64,000 bases of DNA, taken from positions 258,373-322,372 of the forward strand of contig DAIDKE010000001.1 in the NCBI GenBank assembly GCA_027450165.1. Direction: 5' to 3'. Both the position numbers and the translations under genes were made by a program. Positions 2,378 to 18,306 of the stretch are shown one piece after another (the stretch's first letter is position 1; each line of letters begins with the position of its first letter). The stretch is from Candidatus Saccharimonadota bacterium (lineage in GTDB: Bacteria > Patescibacteriota > Saccharimonadia > Saccharimonadales > Saccharimonadaceae). The notes beneath the pieces are model-generated. The model did not search any database. It was not told the DNA's origin and worked only from the letters and a program-made list of their open reading frames with translations.

Positions 2378-5116
2378 ATGACCAAATTCGGTAAGGTGTG
2401 TTTAATCTTGGGGTTAATGGCGGCTGCGACAATTTTTAATATTTGTATAAATCCGGCTACGGCGGGCGCGGCTGATGGTTATTGGTCGACAGCGCCGCCC
2501 AAATTTTTGTCTTTTATACCCGATCAAACTTTGCCAAATTGTAATGGCACTTTGCTGCAGGCTAGTGTTGATGGGGTGGGCGATGGCCTACCAATCTGTC
2601 TGGTTGATACACAGCCGACAAGTGGTCTGCGCTGGGGATATTATCTGAATTATGGTCTGCCACAGCCGGTCATTAGTTTTAATTACGAGGCAAAATTTTA
2701 CGCAATCACCGGCTTGTCATATGTTCCGAGGGCGACGGACTATGTCGCCGCAAGCGATAGCCTGTTTGTGGGTAATGCTAACACGAGTGGTCGTCTTACA
2801 ATTTATGAACATGTGACTCGGCGCTTAAAACGACGTACTAATCTGGCGCAAACTTATTTTGAATTTGACGGTTCGGCACCGGAATACGTCAGTGCGATGG
2901 CGGTGGTCGGTGATATCGGGGTGTCTAATAACGGACGTTATGTTGTGTTTGAGATGCGTGAAAGCGGTTTTGCGCTGCTGGACCGTAAGGCTATGACGAT
3001 AAAACAAATTTCAACTCAAGCCGTTCATTATGGCTGGGGGAGTGATCCGGCGGTAGAGCTAGCCGTTTCGGATGATGGAGGGTTGGTGGTCGAAGCTGGT
3101 TTAAACACACCATTTAATGTGTGGGCGGTTAGTGAGAGCTGTGGAATGCCGATTGAACCGGGTGGTGTTGCGCCGCCGGTGAATGCGAATTGTCCGAATG
3201 TCAACTTGCCGTATGCTGATTTTTTGACGACCGCCAGCGTATTTTACGCGCCAGTTTTTAATGACAGTAATACGATCCTAAGGTTTTATTTGCGTGGCTA
3301 CGATGGCCGCAGCGGTTACGTAACCCTTGCGTCGGCCGGTTCAAGCAATAAGATGGCTTATTTGGCGCTCGGTGACTCGTATACCAGTGGCGAAGGCGAG
3401 CTTGACAATAAATTTTACAAGTCAGGCACCGACTCGGAGTTTGAAAAGTGTCATTTGAGCCTAAGGTCGTACCCGTTTTTATATGGTCAAAATTTAGGTT
3501 TGCCGGGCGTGGGCGTAAATAGCGTGGCCTGTTCGGGTGCGCGGACTACCGATATTTTGGGCTCCAATGATGACTACTGGGGTCAGGGTAAGCGCCTGGG
3601 CAGTGGTGGTTTAAATCTAACGAATGATGATCGACTGTCTTACCAAGCGCAGGCGTTGGATGATTTTACTCCGGGTAGAGTGCGCCAATTGTCTTTTGTC
3701 GCAAAATATACGCCAAATTTGGTGACGGTGGGGATTGGCGGCAATGACTCGGGGCTGTTCGGCAAACTGGCGGCCTGCGCTATGCCGGGCGAGTGCGAGT
3801 GGGTGAGTGACAAAGGCAAGGCTCAGACTTACCAAGAAATTAACAGTCTTGAGCCAAAACTTGTTGATACTTACCAAAAAATTAAGCAAGCCTCACCGTC
3901 CAGTCGGGTTTTTGCTGTCAATTACCCACAAGTGATTAATCCCGAGGGGCACTGTGACGCCCTAACCTCGGCTATGTTTAACGCCAATGAACGACGGCTG
4001 ATTAACGAAAGTATTGCGCACATCAATGACGTGATCGATTGGGCGGCTACTAAGGCTGGCGTGGGTGTCTTTGATATCGAAGCCAGCTTTGTGGGCCACA
4101 GACTATGCGATGATAGTAGTCAACTGGCGGTTAGTAGCTTGCGTATTGGCAATGACTTTGGGCCGGGCGACAGCAAATTACTACACTTGCTTGGCAACGA
4201 GACATTCCATCCGACGCCTTACGGTCAGCAGTTAGTAGCGGCTGCGCTTTATGCCCAGATGTCGCAGCTTGAACAAGCAACTTCGAACAAACCCAAGGAT
4301 AATCAGTCAGCAGCTGACAGTGATTATTGGCCACAGGGCATAACTTACCCGCAGTCTAGAAATGTTGAATTAACCACAACACCACAAATAGAAAGCCTTA
4401 ATATGTCATTTGGGGTTCAGCTGCCGGCCAATTCGCTAGCACCCGCATCTGAGGCTAGTGTTACGATTGACGACTCGGCGTCGCTAAGTGCGCCGGCAAA
4501 TCAGGATGGAGCTTTTGCGGTCGACCTAGCTTTGCCGGACAATTTTAGTGAAGGTGTTCATACGGTTCACATTGAGGGCGAGTCGCCGAGTGGCGACCGA
4601 ATAGATAATTACGAGATGGTTAGCTATAATCCACCGAACGAGTCTGACGATAATGCGGTTAACGATATTGGCGACGGTGATAATGTTGATCAAAATAAGT
4701 CGGACGACAACAATCAAAGCAGCGACACGACGGACAAAGGATCAACTGACGACCAGCGGACCATAGAAGTTAATCCGGCACCGCCCAGTGGCGGGTACAA
4801 TCAATTCGTCAGTATCTTACCTTGGGGTTGGCGTATGCGAATTGATGCCCTACGGCCTGCAGCACTATCGGGGCGTGACGTCCTGCCAGATGATTCGCCT
4901 AGCTTTGTGACCGATGGCCAAAAAAACATAAAATCGGCCGGCGCTAAACCGGTCTCAGCAAAATCAAGTCAAGCCGTACTTGGCTGGAGTACATCTCGAG
5001 CGATAACCTGGCGCAGCTGGCTGTTCGGACCAATCTATTGGTATATGCCGTTTTGGCTGGCGTCGTCTGATCAACCAGGTATAATGAGTCCATGGCTAAT
5101 TTTCGCTCACTTGTAA
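2378..5116 (+). CDS. Large secreted SGNH/GDSL-family hydrolase
   Basis: The protein has 912 residues. It begins with a signal peptide or membrane anchor (about residues 1-32, hydrophobic core LILGLMAAATIF, then ATAGAADG), so it acts outside the cytoplasm. Residues about 40-325 look beta-rich and repeat-like and may be a propeller. The SGNH hydrolase domain follows: block I GDSYTSGE near residue 332, VACSGARTTD, block III GIGGNDSG near 454, and a C-terminal FHPTPYG (His about 611), giving a plausible Ser-His catalytic pair. A beta domain and an Asp/Asn-rich linker (about 750-790) follow, then a hydrophobic C-terminus. The substrate (lipid, acetylated sugar or peptidoglycan O-acetyl) is unknown. 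SD AAGGA lies before the ATG. The 3' end overlaps the next gene by 25 bp. Confidence 0.8.
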   Translation: MTKFGKVCLILGLMAAATIFNICINPATAGAADGYWSTAPPKFLSFIPDQTLPNCNGTLLQASVDGVGDGLPICLVDTQPTSGLRWGYYLNYGLPQPVISFNYEAKFYAITGLSYVPRATDYVAASDSLFVGNANTSGRLTIYEHVTRRLKRRTNLAQTYFEFDGSAPEYVSAMAVVGDIGVSNNGRYVVFEMRESGFALLDRKAMTIKQISTQAVHYGWGSDPAVELAVSDDGGLVVEAGLNTPFNVWAVSESCGMPIEPGGVAPPVNANCPNVNLPYADFLTTASVFYAPVFNDSNTILRFYLRGYDGRSGYVTLASAGSSNKMAYLALGDSYTSGEGELDNKFYKSGTDSEFEKCHLSLRSYPFLYGQNLGLPGVGVNSVACSGARTTDILGSNDDYWGQGKRLGSGGLNLTNDDRLSYQAQALDDFTPGRVRQLSFVAKYTPNLVTVGIGGNDSGLFGKLAACAMPGECEWVSDKGKAQTYQEINSLEPKLVDTYQKIKQASPSSRVFAVNYPQVINPEGHCDALTSAMFNANERRLINESIAHINDVIDWAATKAGVGVFDIEASFVGHRLCDDSSQLAVSSLRIGNDFGPGDSKLLHLLGNETFHPTPYGQQLVAAALYAQMSQLEQATSNKPKDNQSAADSDYWPQGITYPQSRNVELTTTPQIESLNMSFGVQLPANSLAPASEASVTIDDSASLSAPANQDGAFAVDLALPDNFSEGVHTVHIEGESPSGDRIDNYEMVSYNPPNESDDNAVNDIGDGDNVDQNKSDDNNQSSDTTDKGSTDDQRTIEVNPAPPSGGYNQFVSILPWGWRMRIDALRPAALSGRDVLPDDSPSFVTDGQKNIKSAGAKPVSAKSSQAVLGWSTSRAITWRSWLFGPIYWYMPFWLASSDQPGIMSPWLIFAHL
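5080..5085 (+). promoter_or_regulatory. -10 box for the MurE-like gene, leaderless geometry
   Basis: Perfect TATAAT inside the 3' end of the hydrolase gene, followed by exactly 6 nt (gagtcc) and the ATG at 5092, placing +1 on the start codon. No SD is present. Confidence 0.6.
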
Positions 5117-6408
5117 AAAAATTTATTCCAACTAACTTATTTAAGAAAATTGAACCCTACGGGCATTTGGTCGAAGCGGTAGCGGCAAACGTGCGCTATG
5201 GTTTTCCGTCGCGAGGCATGCATATTATTGGCGTGACCGGAACGAACGGCAAAACCACTACCACCTCACTTATTCAGCGAATGTTGCATGAGGCTGGCTA
5301 TAAAGCTGCGCTCATGAGCACGGTTCAGTACGGCGTTGGCCTAGATATCACGCCCGAACCTCAGCATATGACAACAGCTAGTGCGCCGCTTTTACAGCGT
5401 CGGCTGCGTCAATTTAAGCGAGCTGGTGCCGAGTGGGTAGTGGTCGAGACGTCGAGCCACGCTTTGGCCCAGCACCGCATATGGGGGATTCCGTATGAAA
5501 TCGCCGTCATGACCAACATAACTGGCGACCACCTGGATTATCATGGTACTTTTGCTAACTACCTTGAGGCCAAGCGGCGACTGTTTGCGATAACCGCGCG
5601 CAATCATGGCCTTGGTATTATTAACGCTGATGATAAGAATGTTGATAAATTTACATCAACAACCACCAATAATATTACTTACGGTATCAAGCACGGTGAT
5701 TTGCGGGCGACCAAGTCGGATATGCAGGCCGATCATTCGACGTATGTGGCAAAAATTGGCAACGATCAATATAACATCACAGTTAATCTTCCTGGTGAAT
5801 TCAATATTTATAATAGTTTGGCGGCTGCGGCAACTGGCCGAGCTATTGGTTTAACAAAGTCGCAAATTGAAAAAGGAATTGCCGCGACCAAGAGTGTTGA
5901 GGGCCGCATGATGATGGTTGACGAAGGTCAGAAGTTTAGTGCTGTCGTTGACTACGCCAGCACGCCAGACGCTTTTGAACGCTTTTTTGAAGCAATCAAA
6001 CCATCAACCAAGGGTAAGCTAGTCGTGGTTTTTGGCTCTGCTGGCCGACGCGACGAGGCTAAGCGATCAGTCCAAGGCGAGATAGCCGCTAAATATGCCG
6101 ATGAGATTGTCGTGACCGAAGAAGATGACCGCGATATTGATGGAAACAAAATTATGGATGAGATTGCGGCTGGCGCTGAACGCGGCGGTAAGGTCAGGAA
6201 TAAAGATTTGTTTTTGATTTTAGACCGCGAAGAAGCGATCGGCTTTGCCTTAACCAGGGTTGCGAAAGCTGGTGACTTGGTAGCCTTTTTGGGCAAGGGC
6301 CACGAAAAAACTATTGAACGGGCCGACGGCGAATACCCGTGGAACGAGCCAGAGATAGTTCGCGAGGCTATTAAGAATCTATTATCAGAAAAGCCGAAGA
6401 AACGGTAA
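5092..6408 (+). CDS. MurE-like Mur ligase lacking the N-terminal uridine-binding domain
   Basis: This is a cytoplasmic ATP-dependent amide ligase of the Mur family, closest in motifs to MurE, which adds the third residue to UDP-MurNAc-Ala-Glu. The P-loop GVTGTNGKTTT is at residues 47-57. It is followed by the MurE-type ETSSHALAQHR, TNITGDHLDYHG and the C-terminal domain (DYASTPDAFERF, VFGSAGRRDEAKR). Classical MurE has about 100 residues before the P-loop that bind the UDP moiety; here there are only 46. At the amino-acid selectivity motif (DNPR in DAP-type MurE) the sequence reads EEDDRD. Donor and acceptor specificity are therefore uncertain, and a Mur-like ligase with a different substrate is possible. 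Confidence 0.8.
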   Translation: MANFRSLVKKFIPTNLFKKIEPYGHLVEAVAANVRYGFPSRGMHIIGVTGTNGKTTTTSLIQRMLHEAGYKAALMSTVQYGVGLDITPEPQHMTTASAPLLQRRLRQFKRAGAEWVVVETSSHALAQHRIWGIPYEIAVMTNITGDHLDYHGTFANYLEAKRRLFAITARNHGLGIINADDKNVDKFTSTTTNNITYGIKHGDLRATKSDMQADHSTYVAKIGNDQYNITVNLPGEFNIYNSLAAAATGRAIGLTKSQIEKGIAATKSVEGRMMMVDEGQKFSAVVDYASTPDAFERFFEAIKPSTKGKLVVVFGSAGRRDEAKRSVQGEIAAKYADEIVVTEEDDRDIDGNKIMDEIAAGAERGGKVRNKDLFLILDREEAIGFALTRVAKAGDLVAFLGKGHEKTIERADGEYPWNEPEIVREAIKNLLSEKPKKR

Positions 6409-14340: not shown

Positions 14341-14386
14341 ACGCTATATATAGCGTTGTAAATAATAAACATGACGCTATAGGTGT
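14341..14386. promoter_or_regulatory. Distal pair of NrdR-like boxes
   Basis: ACGCTATATATAGCGT (14341-14356) is a perfect palindrome matching the NrdR box consensus. ACGCTATAGGTGT (14374-14386) is an imperfect second copy. The centres are about 31.5 bp apart, the three-turn spacing typical of paired NrdR boxes. The first palindrome could also act as a 3' hairpin for the upstream gene. Confidence 0.5.
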
Positions 14387-14434: not shown

Positions 14435-14463
14435 TTGTCATGCCACATATAGTGGCCTATAGT
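14435..14463 (+). promoter_or_regulatory. nrd operon promoter
   Basis: -35 TTGTCA (14435-14440), 17-bp spacer, -10 TATAGT (14458-14463). The spacer contains an NrdR-like box. The start is expected near 14470, giving a leader of about 160 nt. Confidence 0.75.
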
Positions 14464-14488
14464 CATACATAAGCACTACATATGTAGT
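14443..14488. promoter_or_regulatory. Proximal pair of NrdR-like boxes over the nrd promoter
   Basis: CCACATATAGTGG (14443-14455) lies between -35 and -10. ACTACATATGTAGT (14475-14488) lies just after the start site. The centres are 32.5 bp apart. The position predicts NrdR repression of the operon by steric block when dATP/ATP-loaded NrdR binds. Confidence 0.65.
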
Positions 14489-14630: not shown

Positions 14631-17048
14631 ATGACCGAGATTCACGTGGTAAAACGCGACGGCACCCGCGAACCATTCGACGCTAACAAAATTAATCTTG
14701 CGCTTGTTCAGGCTAGTGAGGGACTGCCAGATCAGATTAGCAAGGTTGTCCAGGTAGCTAGTGAGCTGCAACTGACATTATTTGATGGTATCACCAGTGA
14801 ACAACTTGATGAGGCGGTGATTCACACAGCGTTGCAAAACGTCAAAGACGATCCTGATTTCGACAAAATTGCGGCGCGCTTGCTTTTGAAGAATATTTAC
14901 AAAAATATCCTTGGTGATTATTCGAGCGCCGAGGAGCTAAAGAAACTGCACGCGCAGGCCTTTCCGGGCTTTATTAGCCAAGGCGTAGCCGATGGTCTGC
15001 TCGACAAGCGAATGAGTGATGGCCGGTTTAATCTTAAGAAATTAAGCAAGGCGCTGGAGCCGGAACGCGACGACCTGAGCAAATATTTGGGCGTGATTAC
15101 CAACAAAAACCGTTATGCCTTGCGCAAACAAAGTGGCGAACCGATTGAAGTGCCGCAGTTTACGCATATGCGTATTGCGATGGGGCTGAGCTTTAATGAA
15201 CCGGATCCAACAGCTGCAGCAATTGAATTTTACGAACACATGAGCCGACTGGAATACGTCCCTGGCGGCTCGACTCGGGTTAATGCCGGCGGGACCTTCC
15301 CGCAATTGTCGAACTGTTTCGTGCTGGAAGTGCAAGACGACATGGAGTCGATTGCTAAAAGTATTCGCGACACGATGTGGATCGCCAAGGGTACCGGCGG
15401 CATTGGTATTAGCATGAATAAACTGCGCGCAGCTGGTAGTCCTGTCAAAACGACTAACACTGAATCGACCGGCCCAATTCCATTCATGAAGATGATCGAT
15501 ACGGCGCTATTTGCCGTTAGCCGCAAAGGTAAAAAAGCCGGCGCCGCCGCGCTTTATATGGAAAACTGGCACTTAAACTTTCCGCAATTTCTTGATCTGC
15601 GCCAAAATTCAGGCGACCCATATTTAAGGACGCGGTTTGCTGACACAGCAGTGTTTATTAGCGACGAATTTATGAAGCGCGTCGAGAAAGACCAAGATTG
15701 GTATATGTTTGACCCGGCCGAAGTGTCTGACTTGCCAGAGCTTTATGGTGCTGAATTTAGCAAGCGCTACAAAGAATACGTTAAATTGGCTGATGCTGGA
15801 AAAATGCGCGACTTTGCCAAGATTCCAGCTCGCCAGCAGTTTAGGGCAATTCTAACTGAGTTGCAGGCCAGCAGTCACCCGTGGCTAACCTGGAAAGACA
15901 CGATTAATGTCCGGGCACTCAACAACAATACTGGCACGATTCACTTAAGTAACTTGTGTACTGAAATTACCCTGCCACAAGATAAAGACAATACGGCCGT
16001 TTGTAATTTGATCAGCATCAACCTGTCGGCCTATTTGGATGTTGAGGCGCGCACTTGGGACTGGGACCGCATGGCGGCCGCCACCAAGTCGGCTATTCGT
16101 CAGCTGGATAACTTGGTCGATATTACCGATACGCCAATTCCTGAAGCCCGGCGCTCCAATCAAGAGAACCGCGCTTTGGGCCTGGGTATTATGGGCTTTA
16201 CCGACGTCACCGAAAAACTGGGTTATAGCTACGAGTCCGAAGAAGCCTATGACCTGATTGACCAACTAGCCGAATTCATCAGTTACCACGCTATCGAAGA
16301 ATCAACTGAGCTAGCCAAGATTCGCGGTGCTTACCCGAACTTCAAGGGTAGTGGTTGGAGCCACGGTTTAGTGCCACTCGACACCGAAGACCGGCTGGCC
16401 GAAGACCGCAAGGTTGCTGTTAAAGTTGATCGTAAATCGCGTTTGGACTGGGATAAATTACGCGCCAAGGTTAAAAAGGGCATGCGCAATGCTACCCTGA
16501 TGGCCGTAGCGCCAACGGCTAACATTGCTCATATTGCCGGTACCACACCTGGACTCGACCCGCAGTTTGCCCAAATTTTTAGCCGCACGACCTTGAACGG
16601 TAAGTTTCTAGAGGTGAATACAAATCTTGTTCACGATCTTAAAAAGCTTGGTATTTGGGACCAGGTTAAAGAAGATGTGCTGGTGAATCAGGGCGACATT
16701 CAGATGATTGACGCTATTCCGGATCACATCAAAGACGTCTACAAGAATAGTTTCCAATTAAGCCCTTACTCGTTTATCGAAGTGGCGGCGCGGGCCCAAA
16801 AATGGGTCGACCAGGCGATTAGCCGGAACATGTACTTAGAGACCCGTGACATCGACGAATATGTCAAAATTTATGCCGAAGCCTGGCGGCGCGGTTTGAA
16901 GACGACTTATTACCTGCATGTTAAACCAAGGCACCAAGCCGAGCAAAGCACGACCAAGGTCAACAAGGCCGACGATGTCGCTAAAGCCAGTGGTGGTGTT
17001 CGCAAAGTTGGTTTCGGATTTGCTAAGAAAGAAGGCACGGTCGTATGA
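14631..17048 (+). CDS. nrdA: Class I ribonucleotide reductase large subunit NrdA, lacking its C-terminal redox tail
   Basis: It reduces ribonucleotides to deoxyribonucleotides in the cytoplasm, together with NrdB. The 805-residue protein has an N-terminal ATP-cone (VVKRDGTREPFDANKIN, residues about 4-95), the first active-site Cys in LSNCFVLEVQDD, the NLCTEI motif (Asn-Cys-Glu radical and catalytic residues) and the second redox Cys in VCNLISINLSAYLD. The two tyrosines of the radical relay lie in the C-terminal third. The protein ends GFGFAKKEGTVV with no Cys pair; a separate small gene 52 nt downstream supplies a CEGCQ tail. I start at 14631 because GGGGA precedes it; the frame extends upstream into the structured leader. 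Confidence 0.95.
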   Translation: MTEIHVVKRDGTREPFDANKINLALVQASEGLPDQISKVVQVASELQLTLFDGITSEQLDEAVIHTALQNVKDDPDFDKIAARLLLKNIYKNILGDYSSAEELKKLHAQAFPGFISQGVADGLLDKRMSDGRFNLKKLSKALEPERDDLSKYLGVITNKNRYALRKQSGEPIEVPQFTHMRIAMGLSFNEPDPTAAAIEFYEHMSRLEYVPGGSTRVNAGGTFPQLSNCFVLEVQDDMESIAKSIRDTMWIAKGTGGIGISMNKLRAAGSPVKTTNTESTGPIPFMKMIDTALFAVSRKGKKAGAAALYMENWHLNFPQFLDLRQNSGDPYLRTRFADTAVFISDEFMKRVEKDQDWYMFDPAEVSDLPELYGAEFSKRYKEYVKLADAGKMRDFAKIPARQQFRAILTELQASSHPWLTWKDTINVRALNNNTGTIHLSNLCTEITLPQDKDNTAVCNLISINLSAYLDVEARTWDWDRMAAATKSAIRQLDNLVDITDTPIPEARRSNQENRALGLGIMGFTDVTEKLGYSYESEEAYDLIDQLAEFISYHAIEESTELAKIRGAYPNFKGSGWSHGLVPLDTEDRLAEDRKVAVKVDRKSRLDWDKLRAKVKKGMRNATLMAVAPTANIAHIAGTTPGLDPQFAQIFSRTTLNGKFLEVNTNLVHDLKKLGIWDQVKEDVLVNQGDIQMIDAIPDHIKDVYKNSFQLSPYSFIEVAARAQKWVDQAISRNMYLETRDIDEYVKIYAEAWRRGLKTTYYLHVKPRHQAEQSTTKVNKADDVAKASGGVRKVGFGFAKKEGTVV

Positions 17049-17100
17049 TAGTAACTAATAACCAAACCAAAACCAAATAAAAGTCTAGGGGGACAAAATC

Positions 17101-17280
17101 ATGGGTATTAAGGCATCAACAATCATCAAAGACGATATGACACTTGAAGAAAAATTAGCAGCCATCGACAAAATGATGGCCGACGCTGTAGCGGCTGCGG
17201 CCGAAACTAGTGATAATAGCGGCAATGCAGCGGCACCAATTGACCCGGCCGATTTAACAATGTGCGAAGGTTGCCAGTAG
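17101..17280 (+). CDS. Stand-alone NrdA C-terminal redox-tail peptide (CEGCQ)
   Basis: A 59-residue gene between nrdA and nrdB. It has its own SD (AGGGGGA, 7 nt before the ATG) and stops 30 nt before nrdB. The protein begins MGIKASTIIKDDMTLEEKL, has an Ala-rich helix (about residues 17-36), a flexible linker, and ends LTMCEGCQ. In ordinary class I NrdA the last residues are a CxxC tail that re-reduces the active-site disulfide and is reduced by thioredoxin or glutaredoxin. Here NrdA lacks that tail and this protein ends in exactly such a motif, so I infer it works in trans. No frameshift joins the two genes: 52 non-coding nt and a new RBS separate them. Confidence 0.85.
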   Translation: MGIKASTIIKDDMTLEEKLAAIDKMMADAVAAAAETSDNSGNAAAPIDPADLTMCEGCQ

Positions 17281-17310: not shown

Positions 17311-18306
17311 ATGGCAGGTATTTTAGGTTCCGGTGTGCAAGATGGTTTGTTGCTCAAACCAATTCATTACCAGTGGGCAATGGATCTATATGACCAAGCG
17401 GTGTCAAACACTTGGTTTCCGAATGAAATCCAGTTGGTTCAGGATTTAAGTGACTGGAAAAAAATGTCTGATGAAGAGCGACACGCCTTTACGTTTTTGG
17501 TCAGCTATTTTAACCCGAACGAACTATTGGTTAACAAAGCACTGGCGTTTGGCGTTTATCCATACGTCAACGCGGCCGAGTGTCACTTGTATTTGGCCAA
17601 GCAGATGTGGGAAGAGGCCAATCACTGTATGAGTTTTGAGTACGTGCTTGATACTTTTCCGGTTAACCGCGAAGAGGCATACAATGCCCACGTTGACGAG
17701 CCATCGATGCGTGCCAAGGAAGAATTTGAGACCAAATATATCAAGCGCATGACCGAGGACAAGCTAGACATTAATACGACCGAAGGCAAGAAGGATTTCA
17801 TCCGCAATTTGATTGCCTACAATATCATTCTTGAGGGAATTTGGTTCTATTCGGGCTTTATGGTGGCGTTGTCATTTAGACAACGAAATCTATTGCGTAA
17901 CTTTGGTTCACTGATGGACTGGATTATTCGCGATGAAAGCTTGCACCTGAAATTTGGCATGAATTTGATTTTAACGACGCTTGAAGAAAATGAAGATCTG
18001 CAGACCCCAGAATTCGCCGACGAAATCAAACAGATGATTTTAGGTGCCGTTGAAATGGAAGAGCAGTACAACAAAGACTTGTTACCAAAAGGTATTTTGG
18101 GTTTGAACGCCGACTATGTTAACCAGTACGTTAAATACCTAACCGACCGCCGTCTAGAAGAGCTTGGTTTTGGGGCGCACTACAACGTTTCGAACCCGGC
18201 TAAATGGATGGCCGCCGCCAACGACACGCTCGAACTGGTCAACTTCTTTGAAAGTACTAACACCAGCTACGAAGTGAACGCCGTTAAGGATAAGAAGAAA
18301 GACTAA
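17311..18306 (+). CDS. nrdB: Class I ribonucleotide reductase small subunit NrdB, probably subclass Ic (Phe at the radical site)
   Basis: This is the radical-generating ferritin-like partner of NrdA. The 331-residue protein shows the six metal ligands: Glu in NPNELLVNK (equivalent to the first ligand, Asp84 in E. coli), E and H in EANHCMSF, Glu in ILEGIWFY, and E and H in RDESLHLKFG. The residue four after the first His, normally the radical Tyr122, is Phe (EANHCMSF). Glu as first ligand plus Phe at the Tyr site is the pattern of Chlamydia-type class Ic enzymes, which use a Mn/Fe cofactor instead of a tyrosyl radical. SD GAGGGGAG lies before the ATG. It is last in the nrd operon. Confidence 0.95.
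   Translation: MAGILGSGVQDGLLLKPIHYQWAMDLYDQAVSNTWFPNEIQLVQDLSDWKKMSDEERHAFTFLVSYFNPNELLVNKALAFGVYPYVNAAECHLYLAKQMWEEANHCMSFEYVLDTFPVNREEAYNAHVDEPSMRAKEEFETKYIKRMTEDKLDINTTEGKKDFIRNLIAYNIILEGIWFYSGFMVALSFRQRNLLRNFGSLMDWIIRDESLHLKFGMNLILTTLEENEDLQTPEFADEIKQMILGAVEMEEQYNKDLLPKGILGLNADYVNQYVKYLTDRRLEELGFGAHYNVSNPAKWMAAANDTLELVNFFESTNTSYEVNAVKDKKKD

Follow-up and report, generated by a model that had tools for sequence, protein, structure and literature searches.

A probable free redox tail of split class I ribonucleotide reductases in Saccharibacteria and Microbacteriaceae, with stand-alone copies on phages and plasmids

With each turnover of a class I ribonucleotide reductase (RNR), two active-site cysteines become joined in a disulfide. 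A C-terminal cysteine pair reduces it and is in turn recharged by thioredoxin or glutaredoxin. As it is known, this redox tail forms the flexible end of the large subunit, NrdA, and remains tethered there. The 64,000-nucleotide stretch of Saccharibacteria DNA analyzed here (the window) encodes an NrdA without such a pair, raising the question of what reduces its active site. We consider it highly probable that a small protein encoded by the next gene serves a split, Ic-like class I RNR in trans as a diffusible redox tail, and that phages and plasmids bring the same minimal accessory gene, with catalysis, docking and any benefit to phages being inferences. In the list of open reading frames, nrdA, the tail gene and nrdB follow one another in that order as one operon, with the features below.

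14342 to 14357, no strand assigned: NrdR-box-like palindrome ACGCTATATATAGCGT (sequence, consensus scoring and inference)
14442 to 14457, no strand assigned: NrdR-box-like palindrome, first of a pair (sequence and consensus scoring)
14473 to 14488, no strand assigned: NrdR-box-like palindrome, second of the pair (sequence and consensus scoring)
14631 to 17048, plus strand: nrdA, class I RNR large subunit, 805 amino acids, without a C-terminal cysteine pair (open reading frame and domain matches)
15315 to 15317, plus strand: codon of Cys229, half of the active-site disulfide (invariant in 28 NrdAs; role from general knowledge)
15957 to 15959, plus strand: codon of Cys443, the thiyl-radical cysteine (alignment of 28 NrdAs; role from general knowledge)
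16002 to 16004, plus strand: codon of Cys458, the other half of the active-site disulfide (alignment of 28 NrdAs; role from general knowledge)
17010 to 17024, plus strand: GFGFA motif close to the C-terminus of this split NrdA, common to split and fused homologues (NrdA alignment)
17087 to 17093, plus strand: Shine-Dalgarno-like AGGGGGA, lying 7 nt ahead of the ATG of the tail gene (sequence)
17101 to 17280, plus strand: tail gene, encoding a free NrdA redox-tail protein of 59 amino acids with an N-terminal helix and PxDPxxxxxCxxCQ (conservation, selection and profile search)
17263 to 17274, plus strand: CEGC, the redox pair Cys55 and Cys58 of the tail protein (sequence conservation)
17311 to 18306, plus strand: nrdB, class I RNR small subunit, Ic-like (family match and alignment to Chlamydia R2)

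The window NrdA meets the class I description in its PF02867 barrel, PF00317 domain, ATP-cone, catalytic cysteines and YY radical-transfer pair, with NF005101 (PRK06539) as its best match in Pfam and NCBIfam; what it does not meet is the cysteine pair at the end of the same chain. Only three cysteines are present in the whole protein, at positions 229, 443 and 458; the same three are invariant across 28 aligned NrdAs, and we take them to be the equivalents of the class I catalytic trio. The C-terminus, KVGFGFAKKEGTVV, is free of cysteine, and none follows the YY pair in this or any other split NrdA examined. The preliminary description, which noted an NrdA ending without its usual cysteine pair, was therefore correct on this point, as it was in giving the next gene its own ribosome-binding site and an MCEGCQ terminus. 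That NrdA has no cysteine beyond the catalytic three speaks for its needing a tail from elsewhere.

The tail gene begins 52 nt past the nrdA stop codon, and its product carries PIDPADLTMCEGCQ, with the C-terminal stretch APIDPADLTMCEGCQ. No Pfam or NCBIfam family matched this 59-residue frame, and the free tail peptides as a group matched no Pfam, NCBIfam or useful PHROG family; phrog_14482 aligned weakly, and with the N-terminal helix only (E 8e-4). AlphaFold modeled the window protein with an overall pLDDT of 64 and placed a helix at residues 15 to 39 with a pLDDT near 72. Downstream, NrdB has Chlamydia R2 (1syy) as its closest solved structure, and alignment to 1syy and its F-to-Y form, 2ani, puts a phenylalanine at the position of the radical tyrosine of most class I enzymes and a glutamate as the first metal ligand, for which reason we call it Ic-like. 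Upstream of nrdA, the paired palindromes are spaced about 31 nt apart, and similar NrdR-box-like pairs, about 32 to 33 nt apart, precede most homologous nrdA genes. The genome also encodes a class III RNR (NRDD) outside the window (G000:C1:99458-101176), so the split enzyme may be non-essential here under anaerobic conditions; class III RNR is absent from 12 relatives with the split enzyme.

The small protein can be identified as the NrdA redox tail because relatives carry its motif fused to the NrdA C-terminus. In Demequina, other Micrococcales and two other Patescibacteria, NrdA ends in CPVDPMERLQCESCQ, CPIDPQERLQCDSCQ or close variants. The Demequina protein (L074; NF005101/PRK06539) is an ordinary class I NrdA with the same terminal motif, CPVDPMERLQCESCQ, but there the tail is covalent and tethered by a linker, whereas that of the window is free. 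A profile built from free viral peptides alone matched the last 15 to 17 residues of 16 fused NrdAs (E 2e-11 to 5e-5), with no matches in split NrdAs and none in shuffled NrdAs. These matches support the earlier proposal that the small protein is a displaced redox tail, its catalysis remaining an inference. An AlphaFold model of a fused homologue, made from an alignment of 23 rows, had a pLDDT of 62 with much of the barrel below 50 and did not show docking; neither this model nor that of the tail itself was good enough to inform on it.

The separation is a conserved trait of Saccharibacteria. Whether other nrd operons of the group keep it had been raised in the preliminary description, and they do: the tail gene lies between nrdA and nrdB at 65 of 68 loci and after nrdB at the other three (3/68), with one unrelated gene standing between nrdB and the tail gene at L006, L008 and L009. 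Conservation of the frame across these loci excludes a chance open reading frame. The tail gene is under purifying selection (pN 0.22 versus pS 0.73 in 69 sequences), as estimated from a set picked by a pattern requiring CxxC and with synonymous sites near saturation. Among 61 Saccharibacteria relatives, 19 have both NrdA and the tail, none has NrdA only, one has the tail only and 41 have neither; the single tail-only genome is 67% complete.

A different possibility is that the tail is really fused, with the apparent split arising from a sequencing error or with frameshifting or readthrough of the nrdA stop codon yielding one chain. Some Microbacteriaceae loci have an arrangement that would suit this, with the tail in frame behind a single stop codon (L093 and L097), and many others in that family have tails overlapping nrdA by ATGA or TGATG. 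Across the 65 Saccharibacteria loci, however, the tail occupies all three frames relative to nrdA (24, 23 and 18 loci) and starts 3 to 285 nt past the nrdA stop, with one exception; since all three frames are used, frameshifting or readthrough cannot explain the split. Tails are also found after nrdB, one gene beyond it, before nrdA, on other contigs, on plasmids and on phages. The preliminary description would have been undone by homologous operons with a fused tail and a sequencing error here, yet the homologous Saccharibacteria operons are all split. We thus reject sequencing error, frameshifting and readthrough on the tail frames and separate locations, and leave a single fused chain with next to no credibility.

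The split extends beyond what the preliminary description covered, to a Microbacteriaceae version, to copies far from nrdAB and to phages and plasmids. The sampled Microbacteriaceae NrdAs have no fused tail, and at most loci a gene for a peptide of about 25 residues, without the N-terminal helix, overlaps or follows the nrdA stop. NrdA and the tail occur together in 109 of 250 Microbacteriaceae genomes, with none having NrdA only, three the tail only and 138 neither (Fisher 2e-68, a value that overstates independence, as the genomes are related). Most genomes have a second tail copy, and three to six copies occur in some. In three genomes examined, this second copy is far from nrdAB, beside MaoC-like and MurB genes. 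Two of these (G336 and G337) have their sole tail copy distant from nrdAB or on another contig; each also encodes a second RNR barrel protein, which leaves no proof that their distant copies work with the split enzyme. In a sampled Clavibacter genome, we found a single PF02867 match and no class III RNR; with no other RNR found there, the split enzyme must work in vivo. One genome of the family (G629; L234 and L235) has six free tail genes, including two pairs 4 to 5 kb apart in opposite orientation, which are perhaps on mobile elements.

How often the tail became detached is less clear. Fused forms were seen only in lineages other than Saccharibacteria, and in a tree of NrdA, made by a quick method and with some long branches, they are basal. 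The Saccharibacteria split clade adjoins an actinobacterial clade that mixes split (Microbacteriaceae) and fused members, and two splits cost the same as one split and one re-fusion. We favor independent splits in Saccharibacteria and Microbacteriaceae because the anatomy differs between them and because an early-branching member (L071) has a fused-like tail, …FACPIDPAERALCDSCQ, but the tree alone does not settle this. A further, distant NrdA lineage is also split (G174, L267), with a tail frame after nrdB ending in GDPNLNVCESCQ, while members of its family are fused and end in GDPNLNICESCQ. The redox tail has been detached in at least two lineages and probably three. In another Patescibacteria lineage (L268, G268:C2), a class I NrdA at 3097-5886 ends without cysteine, and no tail was found for it, with no separate tail gene seen nearby. 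A tail-free solution may therefore exist, and this lineage may represent either a further split or a different route of re-reduction.

Free tail peptides are also encoded on plasmids of Clavibacter, Leifsonia and Gryllotalpicola and by the phages CMP1, CN1A, phiPsal1 and Pan2; four tail-bearing plasmids and these four phages, searched whole, contain no RNR large subunit. The Clavibacter plasmid records entered the analysis as a count only, and the plasmids read in detail came from Leifsonia and Gryllotalpicola. One of the plasmid copies, of 33 residues, bears the annotation 'ribonucleotide-diphosphate reductase subunit beta'. The tail of Pan2, a cyanobacterial (Pseudanabaena) phage, is MDDFDTIDGFACPNDPADLVSCESCQ (L257:5002-5085) and suggests that split RNRs extend to another group of hosts. 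Searching IMG/VR with DNA patterns, the first of 52 bits and with an estimated number of chance matches in the collection far below one, we identified at least 238 viral contigs, at least 230 of them with the actinobacterial-type tail and eight with the Saccharibacteria type. In two viral scans, the tail frames were short and closed in 118 of 120 and 79 of 79 cases, and no fused NrdA was seen. A pattern that made no demand for cysteine recovered 120 copies, and both cysteines are kept in every one of them (120/120). No RNR large subunit was found on 19 of 20 tail-bearing viral contigs searched whole, although these may be fragments, as many viral records are. The Saccharibacteria-type viral copies retain the N-terminal helix of the bacterial proteins, and their contigs also encode endolysin, terminase, portal or DNA polymerase exonuclease proteins.

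A few phages encode the tail together with nrdA and nrdB; their NrdAs are tail-less as well, and in some the tail gene is directly upstream of the phage nrdA/nrdB. On six other viral stretches (L329, L353, L452, L460, L461 and L495), the tail lies beside a phage nrdB that is 76 to 77% identical to that of the window, with nrdA absent from the stretch. One phage NrdA (L317:9955-13314) has a probable intein at the catalytic cysteine (SNLC ... GQ/CTEITLP), and a free tail gene is immediately upstream of it.

Encoded on its own, at about 22 to 76 residues, the tail probably works as a diffusible component, one that a virus can deliver without the enzyme. A diffusible tail has no need to sit beside nrdA, which would account for phages and plasmids carrying it alone, and in doing so they would probably increase or safeguard the output of dNTPs from the tail-less RNR of the host. 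The mobile copies might instead differ in role, for example by acting as decoys and so inhibiting the host RNR or redirecting it, while the bacterial copy remains a redox tail. Phage copies are often next to genes of lysis or packaging instead of replication, which would be compatible with such a role. These copies nevertheless keep CxxC and the remaining motif, match their host type in having or lacking the helix and, in some phages, directly precede phage nrdA/nrdB genes in which nrdA is split too. A decoy role is therefore an outside possibility that we cannot dismiss, and a supply of redox tail to the host enzyme remains our preferred reading.

Under our proposal, NrdA would have retained its barrel and three catalytic cysteines while losing the covalent C-terminal CxxC tail, and the separate small protein would supply the missing part. 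Resting directly on the sequences are the homology to fused tails, the split, the joint occurrence with NrdA, the scattered genomic positions, the conserved cysteines and the presence in viruses and plasmids; the redox reaction, the docking and any gain to phages and plasmids are inferences. At each turnover, a Cys229-Cys458 disulfide would form. The free tail would enter the active site by its PxDPxxxxxCxxCQ end, reduce this disulfide with its CxxC and then leave, to be recharged by a thioredoxin- or glutaredoxin-type reductant that has not been identified. In Saccharibacteria, the conserved N-terminal helix probably docks the tail to NrdA or NrdB, as the preliminary description had suggested, although this is inferred and neither AlphaFold model showed it. 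The peptide would thus differ from NrdH and small glutaredoxins, the small redox proteins encoded in nrd operons: NrdH has a thioredoxin fold and serves as the reductant by which the tail is recharged, whereas the window peptide is inferred to be the tail itself.

The nearest known arrangement is the class II RNR of Pseudomonas aeruginosa, in which the catalytic chain, NrdJa, and the thiol-exchange chain, NrdJb, are encoded by separate genes, and which has been called the only split RNR known outside viruses (PMC4520616). Work on this enzyme bears on the alternative that the peptide has left redox catalysis and now regulates RNR assembly or activity, with the disulfides reduced directly by a small thiol or thioredoxin. 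Dithiothreitol slowly reduces the active-site disulfides of P. aeruginosa NrdJ without a tail, yet NrdJb, which mediates disulfide exchange, is required in vivo (PMC4520616). Expression from a separate, multi-copy gene would also fit regulation, but both cysteines are invariant in the viral set that was not biased toward cysteine, and the entire motif of the fused tails is retained. We regard a purely regulatory peptide as very unlikely and continue with the redox tail.

The window RNR resembles NrdJab in that the large subunit's redox cysteines sit on a conserved polypeptide of their own. NrdJab is, however, an AdoCbl-dependent class II enzyme whose NrdJb has 229 residues and folded domains (PMC9669993), whereas the window encodes a class I NrdA with an adjacent nrdB and a tail of 59 residues rather than about 230; it does not meet the description of the NrdJa/NrdJb family. 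The NrdJab genes also form one operon, while the free class I tails (22 to 76 residues) are often away from nrdA and on phages or plasmids. In phage Aeh1, a class I large subunit is likewise in two chains, NrdA-a and NrdA-b, which reassemble into an active enzyme (PMC2988022). That break was caused by insertion of the homing endonuclease gene mobE and detaches no redox tail; a split of this type is ruled out in the window, where the 52-nt gap contains no endonuclease gene. Phages are known to carry auxiliary RNR genes for whole subunits (PMC3653736), whereas the free-tail phages carry only a tail of about 22 to 60 residues. We found no paper describing a detached class I RNR tail, and no close precedent for a stand-alone tail on phages or plasmids, in the open-licence literature; most subscription journals were outside the search.

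More broadly, and with less assurance than for the tail itself, we lean toward viewing the class I tail of 22 to 76 residues as a shared commodity, encoded apart from nrdA and often in multiple copies, with host-matched phage and plasmid copies controlling dNTP supply and ranking among the smallest phage metabolic genes known. A detached tail makes the idea of a freely exchanging peptide cofactor testable, along with its minimal length and docking code. It also brings to light a class of small genes, most of them lacking annotation, that occur in bacteria, on plasmids and in hundreds of viruses, and offers a simple marker tying such viruses to hosts with a split RNR. For some of these bacteria, the only RNR found would depend on this very small part.
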